NCBI RefSeq assembly: GCF_003130405.1
Contig: NZ_QEAS01000011.1
Span: 21,536-85,535 of the forward strand
Direction of reading: 5' to 3'
Length of the DNA: 64,000 bases
DNA from: Pararcticibacter amylolyticus
GTDB lineage: Bacteria > Bacteroidota > Bacteroidia > Sphingobacteriales > Sphingobacteriaceae
In this document: positions 2,343-38,640 of the stretch, piece after piece
Layout of the letters: every line of letters begins with the position of its first letter
How positions within the stretch are numbered: position 1 is the stretch's first letter
Notes under the pieces: model-generated
Databases searched by the model: none
What the model was told of the DNA's origin: nothing
What the model saw: only the letters and a program-made list of their open reading frames with translations
Program-made: the position numbers and the translations under genes

Positions 2343-4259
2343 ATGCTGACTGTACGATGTATTATTGCCACCTTCTTTTTGGGTATCTGTCTGAATTCCT
2401 ATTCACAACCGGCCTCTTCCAGGATAAATATCATCCCCGAGCCTGTGGAGTTTACTCAACTCGAAGGATCATTCTTATTACCTCAAAGGGTTGTTATAAA
2501 GTCTGAACGGGATTCAGATGCAGTGCGGGTTGCTGCTTATCTTAAAGAAAAGCTGGCGGCTACGGGCAGGAGCTTTATTATAAGCTATAGTGCGGCTTCC
2601 GGAAATATCCATCTCGATTTGCTGTCGAAACAAGATACCGAACTTGGAAAGGAAGGCTACCGGCTAACCGTAAATGAAGGAAGAATTCTGATCCAGGCAA
2701 ACGCGCCGGCGGGTCTCTTTTACGGCGTACAAACCTTACTTCAATTGTTTCCAAAGGAAATAGAGAGCAAAGACATACTGGCTGAAAAGGCATGGAAAGT
2801 TCCCTGTGTTACGGTGACTGACTACCCGAGATTCGGATGGAGAGGATTGATGTTTGATGTTGCGCGGCATTTCTTTACGAAGGAGGATGTAAAGCGGCAC
2901 ATCGATCAGATGGCCAGGTATAAGTTTAATTTGCTCCATTTACACCTGACTGATGATGAAGGATGGCGGATCGAAATAAAAAGCTATCCAAAGCTTACAC
3001 AGGTGGGAGCATGGAGAGTGGACAAGGTAGGCTATTTTGGCGATTTTACACCTCCCGCACCGGATGAGCCTAATACGTATGGTGGATTTTATACACAGGA
3101 AGATATCAAAGAACTTGTAAAATATGCAAAGGACAGATTTGTCGATATTTTGCCGGAAATAGACGTGCCCGGGCATAGTCTGGCCGCTATTGTTTCTTAC
3201 CCGGAGCTTTCCTGCACGCCGGAAGCCAGCCAGTACAGGGTAAGGTCGGGTGAAAGGATTATGGACTGGTCCCGGGGCATGCCTCCTCTTGCATTGGTAG
3301 ATAATACACTTTGCCCGGCCAATGAAAAAGTATATGAATTCCTGGATAAGGTGGTAACTGAGGTCGCCCAGCTGTTTCCTTTTGAATATATTCATATGGG
3401 AGGGGATGAGTGCTCTAAAAATTTCTGGGAAAAAAATCCGGCTATCCTCGAACTGGCGAAAGCGAACAACCTGAAGAACATGGAGGAGGTGCAGGGATAT
3501 TTTGAAAGGCGCCTGGAAAAAATTGTCGTTTCAAAAGGTAAAAAGTTCATGGGCTGGGATGAGATCCTGGAAGGGGGCGTAGAGCCTTCAGCTGCTGTAA
3601 TGAGCTGGCGCGGAATGAAAGGGGGGATCAAGGCTGCCAAAGCTAAGCATGAAGTGGTGATGAGCCCTACAACCTTTGCTTATCTGGACTATATGCAGGG
3701 CGATCCGGCCATTGAGCCGAAGGTATATGCGACGCTGCGGCTTAATAAAGCTTATCAGTTCGAGCCCCTGCCCGATAGTGTTGATGCAAAATATATAAAA
3801 GGAGGGCAGGCCAATCTCTGGACCGAGCAGGTCTATAACATGCGTCATGCAGAATATATGACATGGCCACGGGCCTTTGCTATCTCTGAATCGCTCTGGA
3901 CGCCTAAAGGAAAGAAAAACTGGGATTATTTCTTCAGCCGTGTGGAAAAGCATTTTGAGCGTTTTGATGAGGCTGAGGTGAAATATGCTCCGAGTGTTTA
4001 TGATCCGATCATTACAACAGGAGCAACGCCTGACAAGAAATTACAGATATATCTGAGCACTGAGGTAAGCGGACTGGATATTTATTACACGTTCGACAAT
4101 TCTTTTCCCGACAGGTTTTATCCCCGGTATACGGGTGTGCTGACAGCACCTAAAGATGCTGTTATGTTAAAGATGATCACTTACCGGGGGAATAAGCCGG
4201 TTGGAAGAATGATTAGCTATCCGATAAAAGAACTTCAGGATAAACTAAAGGCTAAATAA
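2343..4259 (+). CDS. Secreted beta-N-acetylhexosaminidase, GH20
   Basis: The 638-residue exported glycosidase removes terminal GlcNAc or GalNAc by substrate-assisted catalysis. A signal peptide ends around SYSQPAS (residue 24). The GH20b-type N-terminal domain (about 28-150) is followed by the catalytic barrel: HLHLTDDEGWRIEIKSYP, DILPEIDVPGHS and MGGDECSKNFW, which carries the catalytic pair Asp355-Glu356. MGWDEILEGG and ANLWTEQ are further substrate-site motifs. The C-terminal 80 residues (YYTFDNSFPD) resemble a chitobiase/HEX C-terminal beta-sandwich. All catalytic motifs are present and the length is normal. It stands alone, so it probably acts in general amino-sugar or peptidoglycan/glycan recycling in the periplasm or at the surface. 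Confidence 0.93.
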   Translation: MLTVRCIIATFFLGICLNSYSQPASSRINIIPEPVEFTQLEGSFLLPQRVVIKSERDSDAVRVAAYLKEKLAATGRSFIISYSAASGNIHLDLLSKQDTELGKEGYRLTVNEGRILIQANAPAGLFYGVQTLLQLFPKEIESKDILAEKAWKVPCVTVTDYPRFGWRGLMFDVARHFFTKEDVKRHIDQMARYKFNLLHLHLTDDEGWRIEIKSYPKLTQVGAWRVDKVGYFGDFTPPAPDEPNTYGGFYTQEDIKELVKYAKDRFVDILPEIDVPGHSLAAIVSYPELSCTPEASQYRVRSGERIMDWSRGMPPLALVDNTLCPANEKVYEFLDKVVTEVAQLFPFEYIHMGGDECSKNFWEKNPAILELAKANNLKNMEEVQGYFERRLEKIVVSKGKKFMGWDEILEGGVEPSAAVMSWRGMKGGIKAAKAKHEVVMSPTTFAYLDYMQGDPAIEPKVYATLRLNKAYQFEPLPDSVDAKYIKGGQANLWTEQVYNMRHAEYMTWPRAFAISESLWTPKGKKNWDYFFSRVEKHFERFDEAEVKYAPSVYDPIITTGATPDKKLQIYLSTEVSGLDIYYTFDNSFPDRFYPRYTGVLTAPKDAVMLKMITYRGNKPVGRMISYPIKELQDKLKAK

Positions 4260-30526: not shown

Positions 30527-32806
30527 ATGATAAAACAAGATGGTGAACACAGCCGGAAGTTGCATTTACAGGAACTGAGGGCTGATCTGATCGTGGCCGG
30601 GGGAGGGCTCGCCGGAGTCTGTGCTGCAGTTACGGCCGCCAGGACAGGTACTAAAGTGATATTGGTGCAGGACCGGCCGGTACTTGGAGGAAACTCATCA
30701 AGTGAGGTCCGTTTATGGGTGCTCGGGGCAACTTCCCATATGGGGAATAATAACCGTTGGGCGAGAGAAGGGGGTGTTATTGATGAAATTCTGGTGGAAA
30801 ATACCTATAAGAACCCTGAAGGTAACCCGCTGATCCTGGATATGCTGCTGCTTGATAAGGTGAAACAGGAAGCTAATATTACATTGCTGCTTAACACGGC
30901 TGTGTATAGCCTGGACAAAAAAGATGCTGAAACAATTGACTGCCTCAGGGCCTTTTGCAGTCAGAACTCAACAGAGTATATCCTGAAGGCCCCTTTGTTT
31001 TGCGATGCTTCCGGCGACGGGATAGTCGGCTTTCTTTCCGGCGCTGCTTTCAGGATGGGCGCTGAAAGCAGACAGGAATTTGACGAACCTATGGCTCCGA
31101 CAACTGAGTATGGAGAACTGCTGGGACATTCCCTTTATTTTTACAGCAAGGACACAGGCAAGCCTGTAAAGTTTACAGCACCGGATTTCGCACTTCCCGA
31201 TATTTCCGTTATACCGCGTTACCGTAGTTTTAACGCGCAGGATTATGGCTGCCGGCTTTGGTGGGTAGAATATGGCGGGCGACTGGATACCGTGCATCAA
31301 ACGGAGGACATAAAATGGCAGCTCTGGAAAGTCGTATACGGAGTGTGGAACTATATCAAGAATTCCGGCAAATTCCCGGAAGCGGAGACCCTGACCCTGG
31401 AGTGGGTCGGCACAATTCCCGGGAAGAGGGAAAGCCGGCGTTTCGAGGGGGATTATATCATGACGCAGCACGACCTGGTGGAGCAAAGGGAACACGATGA
31501 TGCTGTGGCTTATGGTGGATGGTCTATTGATCTGCACCCGGCAGACGGGGTGTTCAGTGAACGTCCGGGCTGCAATCAATGGCATAGCAAAGGCGTGTTT
31601 CAGATCCCTTACCGCAGTATGTACAGCCGCAATATCAGCAACCTGTTCCTGGCCGGCCGCATCATCAGTGTCAGCCATGTGGCGTTCGGGGCTACCAGGG
31701 TAATGGCGACCGTTGCCCATGCAGCCCAGGCAGTGGGGATCGCTGCTAATCTTTGTACTAAGTACGGGGTGACTCCCGCTCAGATAATTGAAAAGGGTTA
31801 TTTATCAGAGTTGCAGCAGAACCTGATTGCCTCCGGCCAGTATATCCCTGGATTGCGCCTGAAAGATCATAAAGATTTGGTCCACTCTGCCAGTATTACC
31901 GCGTCATCTCAATTATCTTTCAGCGGGTTCAGCCAGCCTGATTTGTGGAAGCCTTTAACAATGGCTGCGGGGCAGCTGATCCCCCTGGAAAAAGGGCCGG
32001 TTCCGGTATTCAGTATTCCCTGCCGTGCCGTTTCGAAAGAATTATTGACTTGCGAATTGTGGTTGAGCAGCAGGAAAGCTAGTTTTACTCCGGATGTTCT
32101 TTTGGCCTCCAGACAACTGCAAATAGAGGGAGAGGGGTATGCTGAACTCGATTTTAACGTGTCTTTGGAAGAATCCGGTTACGTGTTTTTAATTTTCAGG
32201 CAGAATGAAAACCTGGAACTGGGATATTCAAATCAGCGAATAACAGGCATATTGTCGGTTTTTAACCTGATAAATAAAGCCGTTTCGAATTACGGAAAAC
32301 AGTCGCCTCCCCCGGGAAGCGGTGTCGATGAGTTTGAATTCTGGTGCCCGCAACGTCGCCCGCAGGGTGAGAACCTGGCGTTTCGTTTATCACGCCATGC
32401 GGATGTTTTCAGTCCTGAGAATGTAAGGAATGGAGTCGACAGGCCGGTTGATCAGCCTAATGCATGGGTGGCCGGCAGCCGGGATCCTGCTCCCTGTTTG
32501 TCTGTTTCCTGGGAGGAGCCCCAGAGGATCAGTACGATCGTTCTTTCTTTTGATTCGGATTTTGATCATCCAATGGAGTCTGTCCTGATGACGCATCCTG
32601 AAACTGTGATGCCGTTTTGCGTCAGAAACTACAGGATCTGTGATGATCAGGGAAATGAGCTTTATTCCCGGTCCGGGAATTATCAGACGCGTAACATTAT
32701 CAGGCTTGATGATGCCGTGAGCACAAAAGGATTAAAGATATATGTGGAGCATCCTCTTGCCACTGTTCCGGCGGCCCTGTTTGGCTTGAGGTGTTACGAA
32801 AATTAA
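30527..32806 (+). CDS. FAD-dependent oxidoreductase (PF12831 type) with C-terminal beta domain
   Basis: The 759-residue cytoplasmic flavoprotein has no signal peptide. The FAD motif is LIVAGGGLAGVCAAVTAART (about 22-41), followed by the family segment VLGGNSSSEVRLWVLGATSH, and by FCDASGDGIVGFLSGAAFRM and ATRVMATVAHAAQAVGIAANL. That covers about 1-440. The remaining 300 residues are beta-rich and end in a discoidin-like fold (ENVRNGVDRPVDQPNAWVAG). Members are often encoded in carbohydrate loci of Bacteroidota; the substrate is unknown. It is followed after 28 bp by a Na+/solute symporter, so the two probably form a catabolic pair for one imported compound. Confidence 0.85.
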   Translation: MIKQDGEHSRKLHLQELRADLIVAGGGLAGVCAAVTAARTGTKVILVQDRPVLGGNSSSEVRLWVLGATSHMGNNNRWAREGGVIDEILVENTYKNPEGNPLILDMLLLDKVKQEANITLLLNTAVYSLDKKDAETIDCLRAFCSQNSTEYILKAPLFCDASGDGIVGFLSGAAFRMGAESRQEFDEPMAPTTEYGELLGHSLYFYSKDTGKPVKFTAPDFALPDISVIPRYRSFNAQDYGCRLWWVEYGGRLDTVHQTEDIKWQLWKVVYGVWNYIKNSGKFPEAETLTLEWVGTIPGKRESRRFEGDYIMTQHDLVEQREHDDAVAYGGWSIDLHPADGVFSERPGCNQWHSKGVFQIPYRSMYSRNISNLFLAGRIISVSHVAFGATRVMATVAHAAQAVGIAANLCTKYGVTPAQIIEKGYLSELQQNLIASGQYIPGLRLKDHKDLVHSASITASSQLSFSGFSQPDLWKPLTMAAGQLIPLEKGPVPVFSIPCRAVSKELLTCELWLSSRKASFTPDVLLASRQLQIEGEGYAELDFNVSLEESGYVFLIFRQNENLELGYSNQRITGILSVFNLINKAVSNYGKQSPPPGSGVDEFEFWCPQRRPQGENLAFRLSRHADVFSPENVRNGVDRPVDQPNAWVAGSRDPAPCLSVSWEEPQRISTIVLSFDSDFDHPMESVLMTHPETVMPFCVRNYRICDDQGNELYSRSGNYQTRNIIRLDDAVSTKGLKIYVEHPLATVPAALFGLRCYEN

Positions 32807-32810
32807 AAGG

Positions 32811-32825
32811 AGTGCACAATGCACT
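32811..32825. repeat. Short inverted repeat between oxidoreductase and symporter
   Basis: AGTGCA and TGCACT flank a CAA loop in the 28-bp gap, right after an A-rich AAAAGG. It may influence translation of the symporter. It is too weak to be a terminator. Confidence 0.25.
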
Positions 32826-32834
32826 GAACTTGAC

Positions 32835-34520
32835 ATGGCAAGATTAGATTTTATTGTGATGGGCGTATTCGCCCTGCTTATTTTTGGGATCGGCCTGACC
32901 TTTACCCGTATGGGGAATAAGAATGGTCAGGCTTTCTTCGAAGCCGGAGGTGAGACGCCCTGGTGGATCAATGGTCTTTCACTGTTTATCAGTTACTTCT
33001 CTGCCGGCACCTTTGTAGTCTGGGGATCTATTGCCTATAAGTTCGGGCTGGTGGCGAATGCAATTCAGACAACCATGGCGATCAGCGGGTTTCTCGTCAT
33101 GCTTTTTATTGCAGGAGCCTGGAAGCGGACCGGGGTCGCAACTGCTGCTGAGTATGTAGGCAAGCGGTTCGGAGCCAATGAGAAGCAGTTTTATACATAT
33201 CTCACATTGTTACTGAGCCTCTTTACAACAGCAGCGGTACTTTACCCAGTAGGGAAAATGGTGCATGTCGCTTCCGGAATGTCCCTGAACATGTGTATTT
33301 CCATTATAGGCCTTATAATCGTATTGTATACCGCAGCCGGTGGCCTGTGGGCTGTCCTCGTTACGGATGTCGTTCAGTTTGTCATTCTCACCGCAGCTGT
33401 ACTTATTGTGATCCCGATATCGTTTAACGAAATCGGAGGTATTGAAATGTTGATTAAGAAAGCGCCGGAGGGCTTCTTTACACCTGTTAACAGCGAATAT
33501 ACACTGGGCTTCATGCTCGCCTTCATTGTTTATCAGACCTTTTACATAGGAGGTAACTGGTCCTACGTTCAGCGTTACACCAGCGTTGGGAATGAAAGAC
33601 AATCAAAAAAGGTTGCCGGGATCTTTACCGCGCTTTATTTGGTTTGCCCCGTCATCTGGATGATCCCTCCGATGATATACAGGATTATAAATCCCAATTT
33701 ACACGGCCTGGAATCTGAAGATGCTTACATGATGCTCATCCAGAAAGTGATGCCTGCTGGCCTGATCGGGCTGGTTCTCGCGGGCATGGTGTCCGCAACT
33801 TCGAGTAAGGCCAACACTACCATCAACATGGCGGCTACTGTCTTTGCCCAGGATATTTACCATCATCTGTTAAGACCGGGGGCATCCGACAGGGAGGTCA
33901 TCTGGATTGCGAGACTTTTTACGCTGGCTTTCGGGGCCGCAACTATCGGAGTGGCCATGTGGATACCAAGTGCAGGTGGAATAGTGGAAGTTGTTTTGAG
34001 TACGGCCTCTATCGCCGGAGGTGCTTTATTTGCTCCTTTACTCTGGTCTTTGTTCTCCAGGCGTCAAACCGGCCTTTCCGTTGTAACCACCAGTGTTGTA
34101 TCTCTTTTGCTGAACCTGTATCTTAAAACAATTAATCCATTTCTTACCGGCGTTAAGCTCAACAGGACGCTGGAGACTGTTTGTGGTATGGGAATTCCGG
34201 TACTTTTGCTTGCTATATTCGAAATCTGGTATATCCTGAAGAAAAGCCGGTCGGATAAGGCTCTCCAGATGGAGATGAATGCCGGAAGGAAAGTTCATAC
34301 ACATTCAGGGCACGGGATTGAGCAGATACATTTTGCCGCCCGCGAACAGAATGCTTTCGGAATAAAGGTGATTGCTGTCTCTGTAATGATAGTTGGTGCC
34401 GGGATCGTTGCCCTGGGTCTCAGCGCAGCCAGTTATATACTTGAAGTAGTAACTGTCGGCGCTGTGATCCTGATTGGCGGACTGGCCATGTTGATGGCAA
34501 TTACACGCAAAAGAGTGTGA
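32835..34520 (+). CDS. Sodium:solute symporter (SSS family)
   Basis: The 561-residue polytopic protein has about 13-14 membrane helices. It shows the SSS N-terminal FFEAGGETPWWINGLSLFIS (helix 1-2 region with sodium-site residues) and FSAGTFVVWGSIAYKFG. The family motif GLVLAGMVSATSSKANTTIN is followed by NMAATVFAQDIYHHLLRPGA. It imports a solute with Na+. Paired with the FAD oxidoreductase, the likely cargo is a sugar or sugar acid, but this is inferred. The C-terminal 100 residues contain a His-rich loop and two extra helices. Confidence 0.9.
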   Translation: MARLDFIVMGVFALLIFGIGLTFTRMGNKNGQAFFEAGGETPWWINGLSLFISYFSAGTFVVWGSIAYKFGLVANAIQTTMAISGFLVMLFIAGAWKRTGVATAAEYVGKRFGANEKQFYTYLTLLLSLFTTAAVLYPVGKMVHVASGMSLNMCISIIGLIIVLYTAAGGLWAVLVTDVVQFVILTAAVLIVIPISFNEIGGIEMLIKKAPEGFFTPVNSEYTLGFMLAFIVYQTFYIGGNWSYVQRYTSVGNERQSKKVAGIFTALYLVCPVIWMIPPMIYRIINPNLHGLESEDAYMMLIQKVMPAGLIGLVLAGMVSATSSKANTTINMAATVFAQDIYHHLLRPGASDREVIWIARLFTLAFGAATIGVAMWIPSAGGIVEVVLSTASIAGGALFAPLLWSLFSRRQTGLSVVTTSVVSLLLNLYLKTINPFLTGVKLNRTLETVCGMGIPVLLLAIFEIWYILKKSRSDKALQMEMNAGRKVHTHSGHGIEQIHFAAREQNAFGIKVIAVSVMIVGAGIVALGLSAASYILEVVTVGAVILIGGLAMLMAITRKRV

Positions 34521-35532: not shown

Positions 35533-36231
35533 TTAAATGGATGGAGCCTGCTGGTATGCAGACCATAGTTCGTCGACCGTTTTTCCGGTATATTTCTTCC
35601 AGATCTGATCTGTATACATCCTGGTCCTCATAGCCAGGTCCAGCTTCTTTACAAAGTTCTTGTCGTATTTATTTTCTATCCACACTAAAAATCTTGCTGT
35701 CACCCTGTAGGCATCTGTGTATTTATGTGATTGTTTCAATTCAGGCAACGACCACCCGGCGGCGGTATTGTTCACTCCCATCCTGAAGCGGACATAATCT
35801 GCAATCCCTTCCGTTACCCATCCCGGGCCGGCATGGTTAGGATAAGCCTGCACAATATGCATCCCTTCGTGAGTGACCACATCAATATCTTCGGGATTTT
35901 TAGTAAGCCATTCAGGATTGAACCAGACAGTTCCGTTGGCTGCCGCCGCCACACCATCGTAGCCGGGATCAATAATAAATGTTACTTCTTTCGAAGCTTC
36001 TTTGTTATATTTTTTGGCCTCGGCAGGATAGACCGTAAAAAAGGTCTCTTTCAGCCGGTTCAGGGTCTGTTCGCTGAACCCGGGCGATTTGTTTACCAGG
36101 TTCAGTGTAAACCCTTTTTTCCTGATTGTGTCTGCACTGACGATCTTTGCTGTTTGCTCCTGAGCCAGCGCGGGACGGAATAAGCAAAGAGATAGAATCA
36201 CTGTCAGAGTGATTGTTGCGGATGATTTCAT
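35533..36231 (-). CDS. Secreted basic secretory protein-type metallopeptidase (PF04450)
   Basis: The 232-residue protein has a signal peptide ending RPALAQEQ. The zinc-peptidase motif is VTHEGMHIVQ (His121, Glu122, His125), followed by GPGWVTEGIADYVRFRMG, which supplies the third ligand region of the BSP family. ESAYQQ-type ends (WKKYTGKTVDELWSAYQQ) are also typical. It is probably a secreted protease. It is divergent from the two-component system, whose upstream repeat array could also affect it. Confidence 0.86.
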   Translation of the reverse strand: MKSSATITLTVILSLCLFRPALAQEQTAKIVSADTIRKKGFTLNLVNKSPGFSEQTLNRLKETFFTVYPAEAKKYNKEASKEVTFIIDPGYDGVAAAANGTVWFNPEWLTKNPEDIDVVTHEGMHIVQAYPNHAGPGWVTEGIADYVRFRMGVNNTAAGWSLPELKQSHKYTDAYRVTARFLVWIENKYDKNFVKKLDLAMRTRMYTDQIWKKYTGKTVDELWSAYQQAPSI

Positions 36232-36365
36232 ATTTTTTTATGGGTTAATATATATTGCATTATATCGTTCCCCGGAGGCGTTGAGCAGCGGCATCACCAG
36301 TTTTCGGAGCGGCCAGCTTCTGTAAAATCCCGGGCAAACAAACATATTTGAAAAATGCGCTTATT

Positions 36366-36437
36366 TTTGTTAACAGTCATTTAATGTTTGTTAACGCCCT
36401 TGTGATTTTTGTTAATGAGTTCTTAATTAAATGTTAA
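36366..36437. promoter_or_regulatory. Phased TTTGTTAA repeat array, likely response-regulator sites
   Basis: TTTGTTAA occurs at 36366, 36387 and 36408, exactly 21 bp apart, with AATGTTAA at 36430 (22 bp). Weaker TTAA-ending half-sites lie midway (36377 and 36419). TTAA recurs at about 10.5-bp steps, placing sites on one face of the helix, as OmpR/PhoB-type regulators require. The array ends 55 bp before the kinase start. Confidence 0.6.
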
Positions 36438-36492
36438 TGCGAGGAATGACGACTTAAATGCAAGTATTTTTGGAAAGAAACCAGCATTCTTC

Positions 36493-37902
36493 ATGAGATA
36501 TATCCGGTTAATTGCTTCTTTAAGCTTTATTTTGCTGATCACCGTGTTGTTCTATCTTACCTATAATACGTTTGTCCTTAATGACCGGCAATATCAGATA
36601 ACCGAAAAGAATCTCCTTTCGGGATTGTATACCGGAAAGATCAAGAACGATAATATTTATCCGGGAGGATCTAAGATCCTTAGCCGATATCTGTACCAGC
36701 AAAAAGAGCAGCTGGAAGCACATTATGCTAAATCATCTTCGGCTGATAACGAATATGCTCATCTGGTATTAAAAAGACTCTTCTCTGAACTGAGGGCTGC
36801 CAACCCGATGGATTCTATCTTCAGCGGGATCAAAAAGAAATATCAGCTGAAGCCGGAGCTGGAATATCTGCTCACGGTCAATTCTATCAAAATAAGCCGG
36901 GATGATCATCCTGTATTTCTATTTGATCAGAACAAGCACTATTCTTTTTTACCTGACAAATATCAAAGCAGCCGGGGATATATTTTAGGGGGAAATCTGA
37001 AGTCTCCTTTAGCGCAAAACCTGATTTCCGGGCTGACAGTCACCTCTACAGACGGGGTGCGTTCTTTTGAAGTTGGTTTTTCTTTTCATGCAGATAAGAA
37101 CGACCGCAACTGGCAGATCTTTAAAGCCACAGTTCCGGCCTTTGTGCTGGCGCTGCTTGCCTCGCTTTCGGTACTGCTTATTTACTATATCACCTATCGG
37201 AACTGGATCAGGGTAAAACGTCTCGCAGAGATGAAAACGGATTTTGTGGATAGTATCACCCATGAGTTTCACACCCCGATCGCTACGATTATGGTGGCTA
37301 ATAAAAGCCTTCAGAATGACCGTGTGCTGGCTGATGCCGATAAGGTGAAATCTTTGTCGAATGTCATATTCAGACAATCCAGGCGCCTTGAGCTACTGTT
37401 TGGCCAGGTGCTCGATATAGCGCGCCTGGACCATGTGACCCTCGAAAAATCGCATGAAATGCTGAATGAACTGGTGGAAGAGATTGTTGACGATTATCGT
37501 CTGAAAGCAGAGGTTGAAGATGTCAGGATCTACCTGTCGACCATACCGGGTGACGTAAAAGTTTCGCTAAACCGGTTTTGGTTTACAACAATGCTTTTTA
37601 ACATCTTTGACAACGCCGTCAAATATAATGACAAGCCCGAGAAACTAATCAATGTGGAAATGGTGCAGCACAAGGGCGAGGTTTTGCTCCGGATATCGGA
37701 TAACGGAGTGGGAATGGACAGGGAAATGGTGACATATATTTTTGAAAAGTTCTACAGGGTTCAGAGGAAGGAATTGGACCATATCCCAGGACTCGGCCTG
37801 GGTTTGTACTATGCGCAGCAATGTGTCAGGGCCCATGGATGGAAGATGGAAGTAAAAAGTGAGGTCAATACCGGCACTGAATTCAGCATATTTATCTCCT
37901 GA
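36493..37902 (+). CDS. Membrane sensor histidine kinase
   Basis: The 469-residue kinase has a membrane helix at about 5-25 and a periplasmic sensor domain of about 185 residues without a recognised family. A second helix lies at about 217-237 (FVLALLASLSVLLIYYITY). HisKA follows, with DSITHEFHTPIATIMVANKS and phosphoacceptor His257. The ATPase domain has FNIFDNAVKYNDKP, ISDNGVGMDREMV, and IPGLGLGLYYAQQCVRAHG. It is followed after 3 bp by its response regulator. The phased repeats upstream suggest autoregulation. Confidence 0.92.
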   Translation: MRYIRLIASLSFILLITVLFYLTYNTFVLNDRQYQITEKNLLSGLYTGKIKNDNIYPGGSKILSRYLYQQKEQLEAHYAKSSSADNEYAHLVLKRLFSELRAANPMDSIFSGIKKKYQLKPELEYLLTVNSIKISRDDHPVFLFDQNKHYSFLPDKYQSSRGYILGGNLKSPLAQNLISGLTVTSTDGVRSFEVGFSFHADKNDRNWQIFKATVPAFVLALLASLSVLLIYYITYRNWIRVKRLAEMKTDFVDSITHEFHTPIATIMVANKSLQNDRVLADADKVKSLSNVIFRQSRRLELLFGQVLDIARLDHVTLEKSHEMLNELVEEIVDDYRLKAEVEDVRIYLSTIPGDVKVSLNRFWFTTMLFNIFDNAVKYNDKPEKLINVEMVQHKGEVLLRISDNGVGMDREMVTYIFEKFYRVQRKELDHIPGLGLGLYYAQQCVRAHGWKMEVKSEVNTGTEFSIFIS

Positions 37903-37905
37903 TCA

Positions 37906-38640
37906 ATGATAACAAAGGTTCTGTACGTAGAGGATGAAGCTGACCTGGGGAATGTCACCCAGCAGTATCTTGAACTCATGGATTTTGAGGTTACGTGGTT
38001 TACCGCTGCACGGCCTGCATTGTCTTTTTTTGAAAAACACTCGTCGGATTACCAGGTAGTGATCCTGGATATTCAGCTGCCTGATATGAATGGTTTTGAC
38101 CTGGCTGAACAGTTACTGGCAGTGGATCCATCGGCATATCTGATCTTTCTTACTTCACGGAAAGAAAAGGAGCAAAGGTTGCAGGGATTGAAAATTGGTG
38201 CCGTAGATTATATTACAAAGCCATTTGATGCCGACGAACTGGTCCTGAAAGTTCGTAACATGGTAAAACATCGGGGAAAGCTTCCTGCCGTTGTGCCGGT
38301 TGAAACAAAAAGATCAGCGGAGGAGATCTCTTTTGGTGATATGCGGCTGCGAAAATCGAGATTAACTCTCTCATTATCCGATAATCGTACAGTATCACTC
38401 ACCCAGAGAGAAGCCGAACTGATAGAGTATTTTTGCCGCAGGCCCAATGAAATTATCAGGAGAGAAGATATCCTGAAGGATCTCTGGGGAGACGACAGCT
38501 ATTTTCTTGGCAGAAGCCTGGATGTATTTATCTCAAGGCTTCGGAAGCTTTTCCGTGAATCAGATACCGTGAGAATTGAAAATGTACACGGAGTTGGCTT
38601 TGTTTTTACGGTCGATGCATCTTCCGGTAAACTAATGTAG
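37906..38640 (+). CDS. OmpR-family response regulator
   Basis: The 244-residue protein has a receiver domain (about 1-120) with VLYVEDEADLGNVT, phosphoacceptor Asp55 in VVILDIQLPDMNG, and conserved Lys in DYITKPFDADELV. A winged-helix Trans_reg_C domain covers about 145-240 (LTQREAELIEYFCRRPNEII, SLDVFISRLRKLF, NVHGVGFVF). It is the cognate partner of the preceding kinase. Its last 9 bp overlap the convergent CorC-like gene. The TTTGTTAA array upstream of the kinase is a natural candidate for its binding site. Confidence 0.93.
   Translation: MITKVLYVEDEADLGNVTQQYLELMDFEVTWFTAARPALSFFEKHSSDYQVVILDIQLPDMNGFDLAEQLLAVDPSAYLIFLTSRKEKEQRLQGLKIGAVDYITKPFDADELVLKVRNMVKHRGKLPAVVPVETKRSAEEISFGDMRLRKSRLTLSLSDNRTVSLTQREAELIEYFCRRPNEIIRREDILKDLWGDDSYFLGRSLDVFISRLRKLFRESDTVRIENVHGVGFVFTVDASSGKLM

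Follow-up and report, generated by a model that had tools for sequence, protein, structure and literature searches.

What does a phased array of short repeats control when it lies between two divergently transcribed genes, one of which belongs to a two-component operon? In the window (the whole 64-kb stretch of Pararcticibacter amylolyticus DNA analysed here), such an array occupies positions 36366..36437 on the + strand. On one side of it lies a gene for a BSP-family secreted metallopeptidase (35533..36231, − strand; 232 aa, PF04450 with E 3e-25, HEGMH motif). On the other side are a sensor histidine kinase gene (36493..37902, +; 469 aa, HisKA and HATPase_c) and an OmpR/PhoB-type response regulator gene (37906..38640, +; 244 aa), so that the array does adjoin a two-component operon of separate kinase and regulator genes, as an earlier reading of the bare sequence (hereafter the original prediction) had stated. 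The sensor region of the kinase has no recognised family and, in a search with a structure model of the protein (pLDDT 87.8), no fold match in the PDB at E ≤ 0.001. From sequence comparisons among relatives, we consider it probable that the array is a site of the regulator at 37906-38640 that chiefly serves to switch on the divergent gene, autoregulation being secondary.

Copies of TTTGTTAA start at 36366, 36387 and 36408 and AATGTTAA starts at 36430, exactly the positions given in the original prediction. Their TGTTAA cores (36368, 36389, 36410 and 36432) are spaced by 21, 21 and 22 bp, and weaker half-sites lie midway: ATTTAAT (TTAA at 36381), a degenerate TTGTGAT around 36400 and TCTTAAT (TTAA at 36423). 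In the array region TTAA starts at 36370, 36381, 36391, 36412, 36423, 36427, 36434 and 36454, and the phasing of TTAA that had been pointed out was reached by just 2 of 20,000 dinucleotide shuffles. Among 20,000 such shuffles of the 261-bp intergenic region, not one contained at least four TGTTAA, and not one had four in a row 20-22 bp apart. The array's own TGTTAA pairs 20-22 bp apart are the sole ones in the window, and TTTGTTAA-N12-14-TTGTTAA has three matches in the 6.3-Mb genome, two of them inside the array, with none for the reversed control. The window has no excess of TTTGTTAA by itself (6 observed, 3.9 expected); the non-random feature of the array is the ordered spacing rather than the number of copies.

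Comparison with relatives shows that the window array is a diverged, extended copy of a family-wide operator, which adjoins a histidine kinase/OmpR-type regulator pair or precedes a few other genes. When 29 sites are aligned, this operator consists of four half-sites TnTTAAYrAWW, 11 bp apart, at 0, 11, 22 and 33, and in the 29-site logo these conserved direct repeats adjoin the OmpR/PhoB-type regulator gene, which bears out the proposed tandem array of repeats of about 11 bp. The array is kept upstream of orthologues, a check that the original prediction had set for its own refutation and that it withstands: TGTTAA-N16-TGTTAA occurs exactly upstream of the kinase gene in 13 of 16 relatives, whose regulators are about 47-68% identical. 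The nearest orthologue, in genome G002, also has a four-core array (spacing 21/20/22), and TGTTAAYN15TGTTAAY has two matches in that genome, both at its two kinase-regulator loci. Across 401 family genomes a stricter operator pattern had matches at 75 places and its reversed control at about 20. The 21-bp period of the original prediction is thus present locally, but it is a local variant of the relatives' canonical 22 bp (2 × 11). Similarly, its "four or more sites" was observed in the window and the nearest orthologue alone; the usual operator is made up of four half-sites of 11 bp and has two strong TGTTAA cores.

The window and the nearest orthologue each have a pair of operator units, the first at the peptidase promoter and the second close to the kinase promoter. 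Unit 1, a 21-bp pair (36368..36394, +), is 29 bp from the −7 box of the divergent promoter, the same distance as in G002 (3690 to 3719), and is the proposed activator site for that promoter. Unit 2, a 22-bp pair (36410..36437, +; TGTTAATGAGTTCTTAATTAAATGTTAA), fits the family consensus and is matched by profile R1, which was built without the window (E 6.1e-4). We propose that it may serve the kinase promoter and extended cooperative binding.

Part of the evidence on which gene is the main target comes from the position of the promoter. In the 29-site logo, a TAnnTTTG-like box stands on the opposite strand at −29 to −22, followed by a blank spacer up to the operator. With a looser pattern that was fitted to the data, 30 of 31 sites have a −7 box at a distance of exactly 29 bp ahead of the first TGTTAA, and a strict TAnnTTTR taken from the literature is found there at 21 of 31. 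The window is among these, its putative −7 element for the BSP promoter (TATGTTTG, 36339..36346, −) being of the strict TAnnTTTG type. Other offsets gave at most one strict and at most two looser matches (one site at −28 apart), and one locus, L127, has no −7 box at the −29 place. Compared pairwise, the sites are on average 0.70 identical in the −7 box and 0.685 in the operator as against 0.285 in the spacer, so that the conservation is not merely a reflection of relatedness. A −7 box locked at 29 bp ties the operator to the divergent promoter and not primarily to the kinase promoter. It counts against this reading that the divergent box is kept in L121 and L122 although the neighbouring gene there is codirectional, a transcript that the reading does not account for. 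Unit 1 of the window, with its 21-bp rather than 22-bp spacing, is a poor match to the family weight matrix (score about −30), and it is therefore assigned by its −7 box, its TGTTAAC cores and the like layout in G002.

We searched for the regulon with sequence patterns and a sequence profile. The gene served by the divergent box is SusC in many relatives and a GH92 alpha-mannosidase in others, and SusD and a GH29 fucosidase are among the further divergent genes at the operator. It is a BSP gene in the window, L130, L131, L191 and L198, and in L202 it encodes a fused BSP-GH92 protein. Kinase, regulator, operator and SusC follow one another in this order on one strand in L189, L190 and L195; the operator precedes SusC with no kinase-regulator pair adjacent in L185, L188 and L194; and in G003 and G024 it precedes BSP-GH92 operons at sites that likewise have no adjacent pair. 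The conserved main target is best read as the divergent gene, which would be a secreted peptidase here and SusC transporters and mannosidases in relatives. Two BSP loci that came from a protein search and were not used in training, L253 and L256, have operator scores of 44.9 and 38.9, where the null does not exceed −15.8. It counts against the reading that, of the 30 best BSP homologues, most lack an operator within 1.5 kb. BSP and GH92 are adjacent genes in L131, L236, L237 and L253, and this adjacency, together with the fusion, suggests that BSP may work together with GH92. The fusion in L202 (914-3910, −) is one protein of 998 aa that joins a BSP peptidase domain to a GH92 alpha-mannosidase.

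The original prediction had suggested a genome scan for the motif. A profile built without the window finds three operator sites in the window's own genome, the next match having E 0.37; the paired period-21 pattern is essentially confined to the array. Besides the window array, one site lies before SusC beside a paralogous system and another, in that same cluster, before a GH29 fucosidase. The latter, third operator (L234, reverse complement of 1865-1934; G000:C37:163274-163343) precedes a GH29 alpha-fucosidase gene in a SusC/SusD cluster beside the paralogous kinase/regulator pair. Motif matches in L201 and L203 look like chance, with unrelated genes beside them.

The regulator itself has a PF00072 receiver and a PF00486 Trans_reg_C winged-helix domain, both above cut-off, which confirms the OmpR/PhoB class named in the original prediction. 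Its best NCBIfam model is RprY, of the Bacteroides RprXY system, but at 170 bits it falls far short of the equivalog cut-off of 370, and the Bacteroidetes PhoB model reaches 145 bits against a cut-off of 270; membership of either family is rejected on these scores. A hybrid two-component system is likewise rejected, the kinase and regulator being on separate genes and the DNA-binding domain a winged helix. The recognition helix GRSLDVFISRLRK is near-invariant among operator-linked regulators, whereas most of the retrieved regulators without the operator have RSMDVYIAKLRKYL in its place, so that the present regulator also differs in this helix from the bulk of its distant RprY-like relatives.

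Toward the kinase, a putative −7 element (TATTTTTG, 36465..36472, +) lies 33 bp past the start of the last TGTTAA. Among relatives, −7-like boxes in this direction lie at most 2 bp from 22, 33, 44 or 55 bp after the last core and never at intermediate positions, within 60 bp of that core, a helical phasing (R 0.81-0.84) that was reached in 0 of 2000 shuffles. This phasing makes autoregulation plausible but secondary. It is consistent with co-regulation from one and the same face of the helix, at no fixed distance, and unit 2 together with the box at 36465 suggests that autoregulation may have been added on top of divergent control in the window. The phasing, the match of TATTTTTG to the consensus and the position of the array upstream of the kinase gene could alternatively indicate a pure autoregulatory site, controlling mainly the kinase-regulator operon and the divergent gene incidentally. 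However, the distance to the kinase-direction box varies across relatives (about 22-56 bp) whereas the divergent distance is constant, and the operator also stands before SusC where the kinase-regulator pair is upstream and codirectional, or where none is adjacent, which makes such a site very unlikely. The order of targets in the original prediction, in which autoregulation was the main role and control of the peptidase gene only a possibility, has to be reversed, because the −7 box fixed at 29 bp fires away from the kinase and because the operator is also found before SusC or BSP-GH92 without an adjacent pair.

If the divergent gene is the main target, it might still be repressed rather than activated. 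OmpR-family proteins can act as repressors, so that repression lies within their repertoire, and the array extends over the place where a −33 region would be expected, and might block RNA polymerase there. Yet the conserved columns of the 29-site logo have no TTTG at the −33 position of the divergent promoter, which suggests dependence on an activator, and the −7 box stays free at a constant 21-bp gap; we regard repression as quite unlikely. It is also unlikely, if somewhat less so, that another regulator binds the same DNA (the 54% identical C37 paralogue, or one of PhoB/RprY type) and that the adjacent pair is not the sole or main controller. The paralogue shares the core of the recognition helix and has an operator copy of its own, and RprY and Bacteroidetes PhoB give the best NCBIfam scores, both of them far short of cut-off. 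Nevertheless, the operator is physically linked to the present kinase-regulator family, the TGTTAA pair is in none of the retrieved loci L020-L095, and the recognition helices in those loci are mostly different. The A+T content of the intergenic region (64%) might be thought to favour a background origin of the repeats, or their origin as a run of sigma-ABfr −33 elements without a regulator, the Bacteroidetes consensus being TTTG at −33 and TAnnTTTG at −7 (PMC7366714). The shuffles rule out chance and AT-rich background as the source of the array. Serial −33 elements are rejected for improper spacing, since no TTTG of the array stands at the distance normal for a −33 element, whichever −7 box is taken. 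Conservation of the operator contradicts both, which leaves this explanation a negligible probability.

We infer that the regulator at 37906-38640 binds the array and that it activates, rather than represses, the divergent gene. The kinase would sense an extracellular cue, possibly a product of glycoprotein or N-glycan breakdown, and phosphorylated regulator dimers would bind head-to-tail, all on one DNA face, to the 11-bp half-sites. The four half-sites of the usual operator would begin at the place of the −33 element, and RNA polymerase would be recruited to the −7 box 21 bp past the operator edge, so that the divergent gene fires, whether SusC/D, GH92, GH29 or a BSP peptidase (here 35533-36231). 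Where the operator is extended to two units, as in the window and the nearest orthologue, unit 2 would be in phase with the kinase −7 box (36465), and positive autoregulation is therefore possible. A dedicated glycoprotein-foraging regulon, in which the kinase/OmpR-type pair co-induces BSP, GH92, GH29 and SusC/D via one rare operator and BSP and GH92 act on mannosylated proteins, is a tentative suggestion that we rate somewhat below an even chance.

OmpR/PhoB operators such as pho boxes are tandem 11-bp direct repeats on one DNA face at the −35/−33 place, and the present operator follows the same principle, so that its kind is already known. It differs in its half-site, TnTTAAYrAWW, in the constant gap of 21 bp that separates it from a Bacteroidetes −7 box and in having very few sites per genome, before glycan and peptidase genes. 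Control of PULs in Bacteroidetes falls most commonly to ECF sigma/anti-sigma pairs or to hybrid two-component systems in one piece (PMC3243724); the DNA-binding domains of these hybrids are of AraC type (PMC11253607). The system described here resembles such PUL regulators in local control of SusC/D and glycoside hydrolases by a regulator beside the locus, but it has a separate kinase and a winged-helix OmpR-type regulator instead of a one-piece AraC-type hybrid or a sigma factor, and would place a classical OmpR-type system in a role that the literature consulted usually credits to those two classes. High-mannose N-glycan GH92 loci are similar in combining GH92 alpha-mannosidases with SusC/D, to which the own-genome regulon adds a GH29 fucosidase, but here a BSP metallopeptidase is included, adjoining GH92 or fused to it (L202). 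In the portions available to us of the published work on RprY, the pho box and BSP/GH92 in Bacteroidetes, no matching motif was found, and to that extent this two-component member, its motif and its regulon appear to be undescribed in the literature searched. For an uncharacterised two-component family they provide an operator that can be tested and a regulon that is small and defined. They also link BSP, a family of secreted peptidases that has received little study, to mannosidases, and illustrate that a regulator gene can have upstream of it an array whose main role is not autoregulation.

Several further elements were observed during the comparison. A related array, TTAATGWTTTCTTAATACATTGTTAATG, stands before a different SusC-like gene and behind a likely serS in L186 (near 4026) and L199 (near 3964), with neither a −7 box at −29 nor an adjacent kinase-regulator pair. 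Two genomes of the same genus (G001:C66:131339 and G004:C2:31059) have a near-palindromic TGTTAACAT..ATGTTAAC element, probably the site of a different regulator. Near the peptidase gene, positions 30527-34520 of the window encode an FAD-dependent oxidoreductase (PF12831) and, after it, a sodium:solute symporter (PF00474), likely a catabolic pair. In L122 (3876-4152) the operator, the divergent −7 box and a hairpin remain with no divergent gene left; the hairpin resembles sequence near the BSP start in L130 and L131, and the region is a candidate remnant promoter or small RNA.
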